Position numbers and translations under genes: made by a program. Positions 28,032 to 64,000 of a stretch of DNA of 64,000 bases are shown here, in pieces. Numbering within the stretch: position 1 is the stretch's first letter; the number at the start of each line of letters is the position of its first letter. The DNA comes from Methylocystis heyeri (GTDB lineage Bacteria; Pseudomonadota; Alphaproteobacteria; Rhizobiales; Beijerinckiaceae), in the NCBI RefSeq assembly GCF_004802635.2, contig NZ_CP046052.1, positions 558,001-622,000 on the forward strand, in the 5' to 3' direction. The notes beneath the pieces were generated by a model. That model was not told where the DNA came from. It searched no databases and saw only the letters and a program-made list of their open reading frames with translations.

Positions 28032-29411
28032 TTATTGCGCGCAGGCGACGTGCTGCGCGCCGCCGAAGACCTCCCGCGCCGGATGCGCACATTGCAGTGC
28101 GAAGATCGTACCGAGGCCATTGGCGCCGCCGTAGGAGGTGACGCCATAGACGGCTGCGCCGAAGCCATAGCCGAGCGCGCCGAAAGCGAGCCCGCCGAGA
28201 GGATTTCCGCCGTCTGCGGCTCCGGAGAAACCGTGCAGCGTTGCGAGGGTCCAATTTGTCGCGGGGGCGGCCGGCGGGCGAAGCTGGAACAGAGCGCCGC
28301 AACCGTTTCCGCCGCAGCCGCCTCCATTGCCATATGCGGTTGTGCCGTAAAGCGCTCCGCCCGCCAGGGTGAGGGGGCCGAAGGACGTCGCGCCGTCCTT
28401 GCCGCCGGTGAAAGTGTAGAGCGTCGTCTGTGTCCATTGTGTCGCGGGCGGCGTCAATTTGAATATGACGCCGAAGTTGTACGTGCCGCCGTTTTTGGTC
28501 GCCCCGTAGAGAGCGCCGCTCTTATCCATGACGACGCCGCCGAACGCGCTTCCTCCGTCGACTCCCCCGGTGAAAGCGTAGAGCACGGTCTGGCACCAGA
28601 GATTGGGAGTCACGGGCGTGCAGCCCGTGCCGCTGCGCATCAGCTTGAACACGACGCCGGCTCCGGCGGGGCCGCCGAACGAGGTCGTTCCGTAAAGCGC
28701 GCCGCTCGTGTCCGTAATGAGCGTCGAGGAGGGAAAACCGCCGTCGGCGCCGCTGAAATTGTAGATCGCGGCGGAAGTCCATTGACCCAGGCCGGAAGGC
28801 GTGAGCTGATAAACGACGCCGCCGCCATAGAAGCCGCCTTGCACCGCGCTTCCATAAAGCGCGCCGAGGCCGTCGAACACGAGCCCGCCGAGAAGCGTCG
28901 AGCCCGTCGTGCCTATGTCGGAGTTGAAGATCGTAGTGAAGGTCCAGGGCGCAGCGGGCGTGACGGGCGGCGTCAGTTTGAAGGCCGTGCCGCAACCGCC
29001 GGGACAGTTGGCGGAAGCGCCGCCCCTCAGCGTCGTGCCGTAGAGCGACCCTTGAGAATCGAAAATCAGCCCAGCAAGTGGGGCGGCGCCGTCGGCGCTG
29101 GAGAAGCTGTGGATCACCGTCTCGGTCCAGGCGGTTTGGCCAAACCCGGGCGGCGTCAGCTTGAAAACCGCGCCGAGCCCGTTCGAGCCGCCGTATTGCG
29201 ACGTCCCGTAAAGCGCGCCTTTGCCGTCGATAGCCAGCGTGACATATTGCGGGAACGCGGCGTCGGTCCCGCCCGCAAAACCATACAGCGTGCTCATGCT
29301 GAAAGGCGTCGCCGGCGCGACCTGGGCGAGGGCGGGGGCGCCCGTCGCGGCCAGCAACAAAGCGGCTCGCAAAAGCCCGCGGCAATGCCTGAAAATCGAC
29401 CCCAAATGCAT
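28032..29411 (-). CDS. Secreted GloVer-repeat protein (TIGR03803 type), isolated copy
   Basis: 459 residues with a signal peptide (HCRGLLRAALLLAATGAPALA). The mature protein consists of seven imperfect repeats of about 55-60 residues built on 'LYxFxGGxDGxxP...DxxGALYGTTxxGGxxGxGxVFKLTPP...WTxT', the GloVer repeat. Seven units suggest a seven-bladed propeller. The C-terminus ALQC...AREVFGGAQHVACAQ is shared with the tandem family at 59.2-64 kb. It lies on the opposite strand, about 30 kb away from that family, without an adjacent partner. Function of GloVer proteins is unknown; surface binding or structural roles are plausible. Confidence 0.85.
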   Translation of the reverse strand: MHLGSIFRHCRGLLRAALLLAATGAPALAQVAPATPFSMSTLYGFAGGTDAAFPQYVTLAIDGKGALYGTSQYGGSNGLGAVFKLTPPGFGQTAWTETVIHSFSSADGAAPLAGLIFDSQGSLYGTTLRGGASANCPGGCGTAFKLTPPVTPAAPWTFTTIFNSDIGTTGSTLLGGLVFDGLGALYGSAVQGGFYGGGVVYQLTPSGLGQWTSAAIYNFSGADGGFPSSTLITDTSGALYGTTSFGGPAGAGVVFKLMRSGTGCTPVTPNLWCQTVLYAFTGGVDGGSAFGGVVMDKSGALYGATKNGGTYNFGVIFKLTPPATQWTQTTLYTFTGGKDGATSFGPLTLAGGALYGTTAYGNGGGCGGNGCGALFQLRPPAAPATNWTLATLHGFSGAADGGNPLGGLAFGALGYGFGAAVYGVTSYGGANGLGTIFALQCAHPAREVFGGAQHVACAQ

Positions 29412-59196: not shown

Positions 59197-60549
59197 TTGT
59201 CCATCTTCAATACTGCTCGTTTCGCTCTTGCGGCCTGGCTAGGCCTGGCGGCGTCCTCCGCTTTGGCTCAGGCGGTTCATCCGGACGGCGCTGCTGCGCC
59301 CTTGGTGGTGACGCCGATTTTCTCTTTCTCAGGCGGGAACGACGGGTCGATGCCGGCTTCCGAGCTGGCGGTCGACAGCGACGGCGCGCTCTACGGGACC
59401 ACAGTGGCGGGCGGCGCCTATAACGACGGCGTGGTGTTCAAACTGACGCCGCCGGCCGCGGGCTCAAACAATTGGACCGAGACTGTCCTTTACAGCTTTT
59501 TGGGAGGGTCCAACGGGCTCAACCCCATGTTTACGCCGACCATCGACTCCCGAGGAGTCATCTATGGCGCCACACAGTACGGCGGAGCGAACGATAATAG
59601 CGGCGCCGCGTTCCAGTTGACCCCGCCGATCCCGCCCTCGACCCAATGGACCGGGACCAAGATTTTCGACTTCAGTTACGCCTCGACCGGAGCTAACCCC
59701 AAGGGCGGCTTCGTGATCGACAGCAGCGGCGCGCTTTACGGAACCACCTCGACCGGCGGCCCTCAGGGCAAGGGGACGGTGTACAAGCTTACCCCCCCTA
59801 CGCCGCCCGCCACGCAATGGACCGGAGCGGCGCTTTACAGCTTCTCCGGCGGCGCGGACGGCGGCAATCCCGGAAGGACGCTCGTCATAGACAGCAGCGG
59901 CGCGCTCTACGGCGGGACCGCATCTGGCGGCGCGAGCGGAAGCGGCGTCGTGTTCAAGCTGATCCCGCCGGGAGGGAATTGCACGCCGACAGCGCCCAAT
60001 CTGTGGTGCGAGACCGTGCTTGCGGACGGAATCGGCAGTCTTTCCGGCGGCGTAGTCATGGATTCGCACGGGGCGCTTTACGGCGCGGCGCAGGGCGGCG
60101 GAGCCTATAGCCACGGCCAGCTCTTCAAATTGACTCCGCCTGTGCCTCCCGCCACGCAATGGACCCTGGCGACGCTTTACAGCTTCACCGGCGGCGCCGA
60201 CGGAGCCAATCCAACAAGGGCTCCGATTCTCGTGGGCGGCGTCCTCTACGGCACAACGTCGTTAATGGGGAACTGCATCTATTGCGGCGCGATCTATGAG
60301 CTCACGCCGCCGGTTCCGCCTTCCACCCAATGGACCGAGACCACGCTCTGGAGTTTCGCCACCCCCCACGGACCGTTCCCGTCCGGCCTGAGTTTGGCGC
60401 CGTCCAATTTCGGCCTCGGCATTGCGATCAACGGCGCCGTACAAATGGGGGGTGGGGCAGGCGGCTACGGCGAGATCTTCACCTTGCGGTGCCCCCCGCG
60501 AGGCAGACAAGTCTTTGGCGGGGCCATGCGGACGGCCTGCGCGCTATAG
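59197..60549 (+). CDS. Secreted GloVer-repeat protein, tandem copy A
   Basis: 450 residues from TTG 59197 (AGGAG nine bases upstream), giving (M)SIFNTARFALAAWLGLAASS with signal cleavage near ALAQ. Seven GloVer-type repeats follow on the 'LYSFxGGxDGxxP ... DSxGALYGTT ... GGAxGxGVVFKLTPP ... WTxT' pattern. Repeat five is short (the 'YSFAGDADG' part is missing compared with copy B). The C-terminus TLRC ... RQVFGGAMRTACAL carries the family's two cysteines. Predicted exported beta-propeller; function unknown. First of four head-to-tail paralogues. Confidence 0.85.
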   Translation: MSIFNTARFALAAWLGLAASSALAQAVHPDGAAAPLVVTPIFSFSGGNDGSMPASELAVDSDGALYGTTVAGGAYNDGVVFKLTPPAAGSNNWTETVLYSFLGGSNGLNPMFTPTIDSRGVIYGATQYGGANDNSGAAFQLTPPIPPSTQWTGTKIFDFSYASTGANPKGGFVIDSSGALYGTTSTGGPQGKGTVYKLTPPTPPATQWTGAALYSFSGGADGGNPGRTLVIDSSGALYGGTASGGASGSGVVFKLIPPGGNCTPTAPNLWCETVLADGIGSLSGGVVMDSHGALYGAAQGGGAYSHGQLFKLTPPVPPATQWTLATLYSFTGGADGANPTRAPILVGGVLYGTTSLMGNCIYCGAIYELTPPVPPSTQWTETTLWSFATPHGPFPSGLSLAPSNFGLGIAINGAVQMGGGAGGYGEIFTLRCPPRGRQVFGGAMRTACAL

Positions 60550-60617
60550 CGCGGTCTTGCGAGAGCGCGACGACACGGCATGACGAAATAAATATCGCAG
60601 CAGCAGGAGCTATCGCC

Positions 60618-61826
60618 TTGTTCATTCTCAACGCCACGCGCTTCACGCTGGCGGCCTCGCTCGGCCTGTCGGCGTCCTCCGCTTTGGCTCAGGTCGTTCA
60701 TCCGGGCGGCTCTGCTGCGCCCCATGTTTTGACGTCGCCCCGCGTTTCGACACCGCCTCTTCCCCTGACGCCGCTCTACGCCTTTTCCGGCGCCGGCGAT
60801 GGCGGCGGCAAGTCTCTCAACGTGACGGTCGATAGCGACGGAGCGCTCTACGGAACCACTCTCACGGGCGGCTCCGCCAATAATGGCGTCGTGTTCAAAC
60901 TTACCCCGCCGGCTCCCGGCAACGCCATATGGAGCGAGACCGTCCTTTACAGCTTCTCGGGGCCCGACGGGGCCAGCCCCTGGTTTACGCCTAGTTTCGA
61001 CTCCTGGGGAGCGCTCTACGGCGCGACGAGCGGCGGCGGCGCAAATAATATTGGCGTCGCTTTCAAGCTCACGCCGCCTGCGCCGCCCGCCACGCAATGG
61101 ACCGCCGCGGCGCTGTATAATTTTGCCGGCGGCGCGGACGGCGGAACACCTGGGATAACGCTCGCCATGGACAGCAGAGGCGCGCTCTACGGCGGGACGG
61201 CATCTGGCGGCGCCAGCGGAAACGGCGCCGTGTTCATGCTGACGCCGCCTGGAGCGAATTGCACGCCGGCGGCGCCCAATCTCTGGTGCGAGACCGTGCT
61301 CTACAGCTTCGCCGGCGACGCCGACGGGGCCGGCATCGTGGGCGGCGTCACATTGGATTCGCACGGGGCGCTTTATGGCGTAACACAGGCGGGCGGCGCC
61401 TATGGCTACGGCCAGCTCTTCAAATTGACGCCGCCGACGCCTGCCTCCACGCCCTGGATCAAAACCACGCTCTACAGCTTCACGGGCGGCGCCGACGGGG
61501 CCAATCCGTTCAGTGCTCCGGTCCTCATCGACGGGGCTCTTTACGGCGCTACGACGAACAAGGGGAACTGCTCCTCTTGCGGCGCCATCTATCGGCTCAG
61601 GCCGCCGGTTCCGCCGGCTGTCCAATGGATCGAGGACACGCTCTGGAGCTTCACCGGCGGCGCCGATGGCGGAGCTCCAGTGGCGGGCCTGACTTTCGCC
61701 CCATCCAATCTGGGCCGTAGCGTTTCTATTTTCGGCTCGACGCCCGGCCAGATTTTCGCCCTGCAATGCGCCCCCCGCGCGCGGGAGGTGTTCGGCGGCG
61801 CCCCGCGCGCGGCCTGCATTCAATAG
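60618..61826 (+). CDS. Secreted GloVer-repeat protein, tandem copy B
   Basis: 402 residues from TTG 60618 (AGGAG eight bases upstream), (M)FILNATRFTLAASLGLSASS, signal cleavage near ALAQ. Only six repeats, one fewer than copies A and C: the counterpart of copy A's 'IFDFSYASTGANPKGG' blade is absent. Ends ALQC ... REVFGGAPRAACIQ. Follows copy A after 68 bases. An in-frame open stretch back to 60330 overlaps copy A in another frame and is not the start. Confidence 0.82.
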   Translation: MFILNATRFTLAASLGLSASSALAQVVHPGGSAAPHVLTSPRVSTPPLPLTPLYAFSGAGDGGGKSLNVTVDSDGALYGTTLTGGSANNGVVFKLTPPAPGNAIWSETVLYSFSGPDGASPWFTPSFDSWGALYGATSGGGANNIGVAFKLTPPAPPATQWTAAALYNFAGGADGGTPGITLAMDSRGALYGGTASGGASGNGAVFMLTPPGANCTPAAPNLWCETVLYSFAGDADGAGIVGGVTLDSHGALYGVTQAGGAYGYGQLFKLTPPTPASTPWIKTTLYSFTGGADGANPFSAPVLIDGALYGATTNKGNCSSCGAIYRLRPPVPPAVQWIEDTLWSFTGGADGGAPVAGLTFAPSNLGRSVSIFGSTPGQIFALQCAPRAREVFGGAPRAACIQ

Positions 61827-61912
61827 CGCGGTTTTGGGCGGGCGCGATTCACGGCGTGGAAACGCCTGCGGGTTAAACTCATGGTTGAGTTTTCACGCAG
61901 GAGTTTCGCATC
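61827..61912 (+). promoter_or_regulatory. Conserved leader of copy C, similar to that of copy D
   Basis: The 86 bases before copy C resemble those before copy D. Both have an IR of AAACT(C) and (G)AGTTT around a 6-8 base loop (61875-61892 and 63369-63386) and then the identical CACGCAGGAGTTTCGCATC segment that contains the ribosome site. Confidence 0.75.
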
Positions 61913-63322
61913 GTGTCTATCTTCAAGGCGGCGCGCTTCGCGCTCGCGGCGGGGCTCAGCCTCTCGGCGACTTTCGCCTCGGCGCAGGTCTATGGCCGTC
62001 CGCCCACCGCAACAGGCGGCATCCCCTCCGGCAGGACGACGATTTACGGCTTCGCGGGCGGAACCGACGCCGCCACGCCGAAATACGTCAAGCTGGCGAT
62101 AGACAGCCAGGGGGCGCTCTATGGAACCTCGGCCTATGGCGGGGCCAATAATCTCGGAACCGTGTTCAGGCTGACCCCGCCCGGTCCGGGCCAGACCAAA
62201 TGGACCGAGACAGTGCTTTACAGCTTCGCCGGCGGGAGCGACCTCGCCAATCCGCAAGCGGGCGTGGTGATGGACACCAGCGGGGCGCTTTATGGGGCGT
62301 GGGGCGGACTTGTCTACAAGCTGACCCCGCCGGGGCCGAGTTGCGCCCCCACCGCCCCCAATCTTTGGTGCGAAACCATCCTTTACAATCAGGCGGTCTC
62401 GCCGGAGGCGGTTCCGGATTCGCCCCTGATCTTCGATTCCCAGGGAGCGCTTTATGGGATCTCTTGGATTGCGATTGTGGGCGTTTTTGCCGGCGTCACG
62501 CCAACCGAGCAGGATTTCGCTCTCGTCACCAAGCTGAGTCCGCCCGGCCCCAATTGCGCTCCCGTCGCGCCCAATCTGTGGTGCGCGGCCTCGCTCGCCA
62601 GTTTCGACATGAGGGCGGGCAGCATTGCTAATCTTCCGTCGATCGCTCTCGTGATGGACTCGGCCGGCGCTCTCTACGGCACGACTCCCATTGGCGGCGC
62701 GGGCGGTTACGGCACGGTGTTCAAGGCGACCCCGCCGGGGCCGAACTGCACGCCCACGGCGCCATTCCCCTGGTGCGGCTCGGTTCTGTACAACTTTTTC
62801 GGCGCTGATGGCCAGACGCCCGCAGCGGAGCTGACCATCGACAGCAGCGGCAATCTCTATGGAACGACGCTCTCGAACGTCTTCAAGCTGACGCCGCCCG
62901 GCCAGGATTGCAGGCCGATAAGCCAAAACCTCTGGTGCGAGACCACACTCTATGCTTTCACCGATCCATTGGGCGGCAGCGCTTCCCAGGCGGGCGTGAC
63001 CATGATCGGCGGCGCGCTCTACGGGACCGCCTCTCAGGGTGGTTCGGCCGGCAACGGCGTGCTGTTCCAGCTCAGGCCGCCGGTTCCACCCTCGACGAAA
63101 TGGACCGAAAACGTCCTTTACAACTTCTCGGGCGGCGCTGACGGCGGCAATCCTCTCGGCGGCGTGATCTTCGGTCCCACCGACTTCGGCTTCGGGGCGG
63201 CGATCTACGGCGTCACTGCGACGGGAGGCCCTGCCGGAAAAGGCGTGGTTTACCAGTTGCAGTGCAAACCGCAGACCGGCGAGATCTACGGCGGCGCGCA
63301 GCATGTCGTTTGCGCGCAATAG
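61913..63322 (+). CDS. Secreted GloVer-repeat protein, tandem copy C
   Basis: 469 residues from GTG 61913 (AGGAG nine bases upstream), (M)SIFKAARFALAAGLSLSATF, signal cleavage near ASAQ. Seven repeats, but several are more divergent than in A and B: repeat 3 has a long inserted loop (SWIAIVGVFAGVTPTEQDFA) and repeats 2 and 5 are shortened. Four repeats have the extra CxPxxxNLWC loop, which gives a Cys pair, also seen in copies A, B and the isolated copy. Ends LQCKPQTGEIYGGAQHVVCAQ. Confidence 0.84.
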   Translation: MSIFKAARFALAAGLSLSATFASAQVYGRPPTATGGIPSGRTTIYGFAGGTDAATPKYVKLAIDSQGALYGTSAYGGANNLGTVFRLTPPGPGQTKWTETVLYSFAGGSDLANPQAGVVMDTSGALYGAWGGLVYKLTPPGPSCAPTAPNLWCETILYNQAVSPEAVPDSPLIFDSQGALYGISWIAIVGVFAGVTPTEQDFALVTKLSPPGPNCAPVAPNLWCAASLASFDMRAGSIANLPSIALVMDSAGALYGTTPIGGAGGYGTVFKATPPGPNCTPTAPFPWCGSVLYNFFGADGQTPAAELTIDSSGNLYGTTLSNVFKLTPPGQDCRPISQNLWCETTLYAFTDPLGGSASQAGVTMIGGALYGTASQGGSAGNGVLFQLRPPVPPSTKWTENVLYNFSGGADGGNPLGGVIFGPTDFGFGAAIYGVTATGGPAGKGVVYQLQCKPQTGEIYGGAQHVVCAQ

Positions 63323-63328
63323 CGCTTC

Positions 63329-63355
63329 TTCCGCGGCGTGATTCACGCCGCGGAA
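63329..63355. terminator. Near-perfect palindrome between GloVer copies C and D
   Basis: TTCCGCGGCGTGA and TCACGCCGCGGAA are perfectly complementary around a single central T, so a 13-bp cruciform or a hairpin with a small loop can form directly after the copy C stop. The matching gap between B and C has only a degenerate version. Confidence 0.65.
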
Positions 63356-63407
63356 ACTCGCGCGGCTTAAACTTGCGGTTGAGTTTTTCACGCAGGAGTT
63401 TCGCATC

Positions 63408-64000
63408 TTGACTATCCTCGACGTCGGCCGTTTCGCGCTCGCGGCGGCGCTCGGCCTTTCGGCCTCCTCGGCTTCGGCGCAGGTTCGTGTCGGCGCCCCG
63501 CCATCGTCCTTCACCGTGGTTCGGCTTTACACTTTTTCCGGCGCCGATGGGGGAAACCCGGAAGCTGGTCTGACGGTCGACAGCGACGGCGCGCTGTATG
63601 GGACCACGGTGACAGGCGGCGGCGCCAATGCGGGCGTCGTGTTCAAACTGACTCCTCCGGCTCCCGGTAAAAGCAAGTGGACCGAGAGCGTGCTTTACAG
63701 CTTCTCGGGGCCCGACGGGGCCAGACCCTCGTTTACCCCGGCGCTCGACTCCCGAGGCGCGCTTTACGGAGCCACGTCTCAGGGCGGCGCGAACAATCTC
63801 GGAGTCGCGTTCATGCTGACTCCGCCCGTCGCCCCTTCGACGCAATGGGTCGAGACCAAGATTTTCGACTTCACTTACAGCGTCGGCAGTTGGCCCGGGG
63901 GCGCTTTCGTGTTTGACAGCAATGGAGCGCTCTACGGGGTGGGTGGGGAAGGCGGAGCCTCGGGCTATGGCACCGTATACAAGCTCACGCCCCCTGTTCC
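63408..64000 (+). CDS. Secreted GloVer-repeat protein, tandem copy D (3' end outside window)
   Basis: 197 residues seen from TTG 63408 (same AGGAGTTTCGCATC leader), (M)TILDVGRFALAAALGLSASS, signal cleavage near ASAQ. Three complete repeats and the beginning of a fourth are present: RLYTFSGADGGNPEAGLTVD, then LYSFSGPDGARPSFTPALDS and IFDFTYSVGSWPGGAFVFDS. The frame stays open to base 64000. The first two blades resemble copies A and B closely, and the third matches the blade that copy B lacks, so D is nearest to A. Confidence 0.82.
   Translation, partial: MTILDVGRFALAAALGLSASSASAQVRVGAPPSSFTVVRLYTFSGADGGNPEAGLTVDSDGALYGTTVTGGGANAGVVFKLTPPAPGKSKWTESVLYSFSGPDGARPSFTPALDSRGALYGATSQGGANNLGVAFMLTPPVAPSTQWVETKIFDFTYSVGSWPGGAFVFDSNGALYGVGGEGGASGYGTVYKLTPPV

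Follow-up and report, generated by a model that had tools for sequence, protein, structure and literature searches.

The closest described relatives of the proteins considered here are propeller lectins and a repeat family that carries no function. The repeat family is the NCBIfam model TIGR03803 (Gloeo_Verruco; 'choice-of-anchor tandem repeat GloVer-containing protein'), and 'choice-of-anchor' in the NCBI name implies an exported protein. Among the propeller lectins, tachylectin-2, of the Tachylectin family (PF14517), is five-bladed. In the PLL/PHL lectins of Photorhabdus, the sugar sites are located between the blades and contain Trp. These lectins form seven-bladed rings, and several homologous ones occur per genome (PMC6943638, PMC12203525). 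We analysed a 64,000-nucleotide stretch of Methylocystis heyeri (contig NZ_CP046052.1, positions 558,001 to 622,000; hereafter, the window), at the end of which lies a tandem array of GloVer genes (array A). These genes belong to a set of 15 in the genome (groups A to E; Table 1) that share the GloVer repeats and a C-terminal tail (C-tail). We propose, with a probability of about 0.5, that the GloVer proteins of M. heyeri are lectins that are exported, bind multivalently and have a diversifying binding surface; the propeller fold is a model prediction and the sugar binding is putative.

The model of A1 is a seven-bladed propeller, with DSSP strands of seven blades (pLDDT 91.2, pTM 0.88), and that of A2 has six blades, the last one poor, that is one blade fewer than A1. 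The initial annotation had suggested a propeller of six to seven blades, which structure prediction bears out. When A1 was compared to the PDB by Foldseek, the seven best matches (E 1.1e-9 to 1.1e-8) were all PLL/PHL lectins of Photorhabdus; for A2, PLL/PHL-type lectins occupied the first ten ranks. The likeness to these lectins lies in the ring, the presence of several homologues per genome and the fold match. They differ in being absent from the sequence matches (E <= 1) of profiles built from the 15 proteins or from 70 rows, and also in that the N-terminal part of the PLLs is not recognised as a signal peptide (PMC12203525), whereas the M. heyeri proteins have signal-peptide features.

A weak but significant sequence match was observed with the Tachylectin family. 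The profile of 15 proteins matched 5c2m_A with the repeat in register (E 2e-4; 1.1e-3 with the 70-row profile), and Tachylectin was the only Pfam family matched at E <= 0.01, by 13 of the 15 members. Measured against the curated cut-off of PF14517 (29.8 bits), A1 scored 29.1 and A2 was also below, while A3 and the partial A4 gave no match at E <= 0.001. The M. heyeri protein differs from tachylectin-2 in having seven predicted blades instead of five. NADH dehydrogenase chains (E 0.055-0.093) and a photosystem protein (E 0.39), which also appeared in the 15-protein profile search, were taken as chance matches.

The N-termini suggest export, as the initial annotation had claimed for the genes in the window: all four begin with a hydrophobic segment ending in A-x-A-Q, by hydropathy and inspection by eye. 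A hydrophobic N-terminus is present in 15/15 proteins, with the junction A-x-A-Q in 13 and, in the pair C1 and C2, A-F-G-Q (D has an ambiguous start). After the signal region, the number of Cys residues is even in every protein, and their spacing is pair-like. The tail extends about 18 residues after the last strand, and the tail Cys and a Cys of the last strand are exactly 16 apart in 15/15. A C-x8-C motif lies in the CD loop of blade 4, and another Cys pair is found in the BC loop of blade 6 (absent from A3 and D). Additional Cys occur in A3, which has four C-x8-C pairs, and in E, which has an extra pair in blade 2. These pairs probably form disulfide bonds. We considered a duplication of blades in A3 and rejected it: whole blades 2, 3 and 5 resemble type 4, but they do not once the CD loop and strand D are removed, and therefore only the loop module is shared.

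Next, we looked at where the copies vary. With columns assigned to structural classes from one model and one alignment, the column entropy was 1.66 bits in strand A, 1.44 in the BC loops, 1.32 in AB, 1.22 in DA, 0.94 in CD and 0.90 in strand C. In shuffles that treat columns as independent, a difference as large was obtained in 54 of 10,000 for BC against CD, 218 for BC against AB+CD, 177 for BC against the rest and 436 for BC+DA against AB+CD; when the BC loops and strand A were pooled and set against all other parts of the propeller, it was 0/10,000, but this pooling was decided on once the entropies were known. The dN/dS of the BC loops was 0.65 in the A genes (without A3, here and in the following values for A) and 0.90 in the B genes; that of the AB loops was 0.47 and that of the CD loops 0.27 in both arrays. 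The BC and DA loops of a propeller share a face that commonly binds ligands, and the BC values suggest that this face is diversifying. The DA loops speak against the proposal: they are on the same face and are not raised (0.24 in A, 0.53 in B), which does not fit a diversifying face. Values of dN/dS below 1 are also no proof of positive selection.

The copies are old duplicates. With A3 left out, dS was 0.53-0.76 within arrays (22 pairs), had a between-group median of 1.03 (69 pairs) and spanned 0.53-1.42 over the pairs as a whole; the array A pairs with A3 gave 1.20-1.34. Protein identity in array A is 61-69% among genes 1, 2, 4 and 5, falling to 46-49% for gene 3, and exact DNA tracts shared between members of the set of 15 are at most 36 bases long. 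Because of these dS values, identities and tract length, the recent duplication suggested in the initial annotation was rejected, while its description of a diverged family holds. The 15 tail-bearing proteins form one group (support 99/99 with nine outgroup proteins, 98 with 72 others). Within it, A1, A2, A4 and A5 cluster (100/100), with A3 beside them at lower support (91/89); B and C make up one group (100/98), and C is not clearly outside B.

If the GloVer proteins are lectins, each would be exported to an oxidising compartment and fold into a seven-bladed ring, in which the N-terminal strand would close the last blade and disulfides would staple the ring. Several similar sites around the ring would then give multivalent, weak glycan binding. 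The strain has been described as encapsulated and as coming from an acidic Sphagnum bog lake (PMC6639610); candidate ligands may be its own capsule or exopolysaccharide, or plant or microbial polysaccharides of acidic peat. The location would be at the surface or in released form. The copies would have arisen by old tandem duplication, strand A and the BC loops having diverged furthest, and with losses as well (remnants, blade loss). Fifteen diverged paralogues in a cultured methanotroph, together with the predicted fold and the variation map, allow the lectin hypothesis to be tested directly, and the organism is relevant to the amount of methane that bogs give off.

The propellers could instead bind proteins or each other, as a structural layer or adaptor in the periplasm or at the surface. 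In the VIA-align list, integrin and WD40 chains come close to the score of the first entry, and the conserved tail of the B and C genes (dN/dS 0.20-0.24, with 0.24 in B) would suit a shared docking partner, though it is 0.50 in the A genes (without A3). We consider such a scaffold unlikely, as the loci examined showed no recurrent neighbour gene, the top of the Foldseek list is taken by lectins and Tachylectin is the sole Pfam family matched. That first VIA-align entry is virginiamycin B lyase, and the Foldseek matches of A1 also include PL25 ulvan lyase, glycoside hydrolase and rhamnose-glucuronate lyase chains, as would be expected if the family were polysaccharide-active lyases or hydrolases, each copy with its own substrate. 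However, apart from Cys, repeated Asp and Tyr, a few Thr and one Lys, no polar residue past the signal region is retained in 14 or more of the 15 paralogues; none of His, Glu and Arg is near-invariant by this measure, and Asp is kept only as a repeat residue, which makes an enzymatic role very unlikely.

It is also conceivable, but quite unlikely in our estimate, that the expansion is a lineage-specific one of little use, drifting under weak constraint. Four degenerate copies, one split tail-less gene, the blade missing from A2 and a median dN/dS of 0.42 over all pairs are in line with drift. On the other hand, fifteen full-length frames (the start of D being ambiguous) have been kept at the pairwise dS given above, the Cys numbers are even, the tail spacing is fixed, and the CD loops and strand C have a dN/dS of 0.20-0.35. 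Beyond the lectin proposal itself, the C-tail may be a new, dedicated attachment or sorting tag displaying a species-specific lectin repertoire, whose binding surface would owe its diversity to altered loops, lost blades and the spread of the stapled CD-loop module between blades; we regard this as improbable. The tail was also considered as a genome-wide sorting signal, which was rejected: the tail profile matched the 15 genes, four remnants and one chance hit (E 3.4), and no other kind of protein.

The family was then followed in other genomes, using a collection with one genome per species. In the genus, 2 of the 38 other genomes matched the family profile at E <= 1e-6, one (G007) with a single gene and the other (G031) with pieces, one of them carrying a stop. 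TIGR03803 was matched at E <= 1e-8 in 7/198 other genomes of the family sample, and in the rest of the order one genome out of 24 matched. The tail was found in none of the 384 other genomes of the class sample at E <= 0.001; the order sample, which overlaps with that of the class, gave just two hits among 396 others, both of them weak (E 0.005 and 0.007), and after a motif scan they were taken as chance. The tail-bearing family is restricted to M. heyeri among the genomes searched.

We also inspected the best 80 of 199 related loci, which are mostly from Acidobacteriota by title, with open reading frames (ORFs) listed by a motif rule. The titles of these loci place GloVer repeats in many soil and peat bacteria. 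A GloVer ORF was found in 77 of the 80, and none of the listed GloVer ORFs ended in the C-tail. By this absence the M. heyeri genes differ from their TIGR03803 relatives, although their repeats score far above the cut-off of the model and make them members. Two neighbouring GloVer ORFs on the same strand were present at 10 of the 80 loci, and an eleventh had an opposite-strand ORF between them. Tandem copies therefore recur in the wider GloVer family, and the tail-bearing expansion is seen in one genome only. A tandem pattern in relatives, as the initial annotation anticipated, thus exists at these loci, but most relatives in the genus have no copy at all.

A search with gene E matched three plasmid records, all below 60% identity, and nothing in the phage collection. 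A Methylocystis bryophila plasmid record holds a GloVer gene. A link to phages was dismissed, as the viral fold matches are those of propellers in general; the best of them for A1 (BFVD A0A481Z910) is an uncharacterised protein of Pithovirus LCPAC304 (E 5.7e-16, TM 0.64 by query length, 21% identity). In the paper collection searched, we found none on TIGR03803, 'GloVer-containing' or Gloeo_Verruco, and none joining Methylocystis with lectin and propeller; one apparent GloVer hit turned out to be a species name. By term counts, the main text of a Methylocystis pan-genome paper (PMC7285482) is without 'lectin' or 'propeller'.

The M. heyeri genome searched has 4,727,788 bases in three contigs, contig 1 being 4,551,947 bases; in PMC7285482 the chromosome of strain H2T is 4,551,947 bp long, and its two plasmids measure 145,219 bp and 30,622 bp. 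The genome searched contains 109 TIGR03803 repeat matches at E <= 0.001. The tail-bearing genes are arranged as array A (5), array B (6), the pair C and the singles D and E (Table 1), so with a second array and a pair the copies are not single and scattered within this genome. Gene E is the one further member in the window besides array A.

Table 1. Tail-bearing GloVer genes of M. heyeri (window positions unless stated otherwise)
Feature	Position	Strand	Description
A1	59197..60549	+	450 aa; TTG start; putative signal peptide; predicted seven-bladed propeller; C-tail with Cys pair
A1, C-terminal 24 residues	60475..60546	+	most of last-blade strand C with first Cys of the invariant pair, then 18-residue tail with second Cys
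A2	60618..61826	+	402 aa; TTG start; one blade missing
A3	61913..63322	+	469 aa; GTG start; divergent; C-x8-C in CD loops of four blades
A4	63408..64000	+	TTG start; cut by window end; full gene L031:6408-7745, 445 aa
A5	L031:7831-9150		beyond window
B1-B6	contig 1, 903.5-913.1 kb		second tandem array
C1-C2	1904.5-1907.3 kb		tail-bearing pair
D	2543.7 kb		tail-bearing single; start ambiguous; TIGR03803 204.7 bits
E	28032..29411 (contig ~586 kb)	-	tail-bearing single; 459 aa; ATG start; TIGR03803 167 bits

Three intact GloVer genes are tail-less (near 535 kb, near 1845 kb and at 4006 kb), and a fourth (2563.6-2565.0 kb; L036:7569-8992) is split between two frames. The gene at 4006 kb (L037:6142-8751, minus strand) encodes 869 aa with 14 repeats and could form two seven-bladed rings. 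The tail profile also detected four tail-bearing remnants: array B contains a pair of them, and the others lie at 1907.4 kb and at 1267.9 kb. In one array B remnant (L032:15158-15391, minus strand), located between B6 and another degenerate copy, a signal-peptide-like start leads straight into the C-tail and all blades are missing. The remnant at 1267919 (L150 near 5919), far from intact copies, has a partial tail and a leader like that upstream of an array B remnant. The methane/ammonia monooxygenase family is matched three times in the same genome, and secretins twice.

In array A, the consecutive, closely spaced GloVer genes on one strand reported in the initial annotation are confirmed by coordinates, by gaps of 68, 86 and 85 bases from A1 to A4, and by TIGR03803 scores of 168.6, 140.5, 148.1 and 110 bits for A1 to A4 (cut-off 44 bits; A4 partial). 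Its count of four applies to the window, with the fourth gene partial; extension past 64000 completed that gene and added a fifth, likewise head to tail. A transporter or partner gene, sought past the window end, was not seen in the A operon: downstream of A5 the next large ORFs, on the opposite strand, encode a TOBE-domain ABC ATPase and a solute-binding protein, a pair that we take to resemble the molybdate-uptake pattern. Upstream of the array are genes for a histidine kinase and a TonB receptor, as well as an ORF that by eye resembles a response regulator. No neighbour gene was seen to recur around the loci of groups A to E in the ORF listings and ten scanned proteins, which fall short of a full annotation.

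Between 1900 and 9400 of L031, no sigma-70-like promoter was detected, and terminator-like sites numbered three versus 7.9 in shuffled sequences. The region after A5 folds no better than shuffled sequence. The starts of A1 to A5 are all TTG or GTG, preceded by an AGGAG or GGAG site (for A2 this start replaces the mechanical one of its ORF at 60330), versus ATG as assigned to B1-B6, C1, C2 and E, some of these starts having been chosen among in-frame options. Of the four gaps in the array, two have a better fold than shuffled sequence, with z -3.4 and -3.2, and the other two do not (z 0.56 and 0.92). The better-folding gaps are at 61824-61915 and 63320-63410 of the window, and one of them has a 12-pair hairpin directly 3' of the stop codon.
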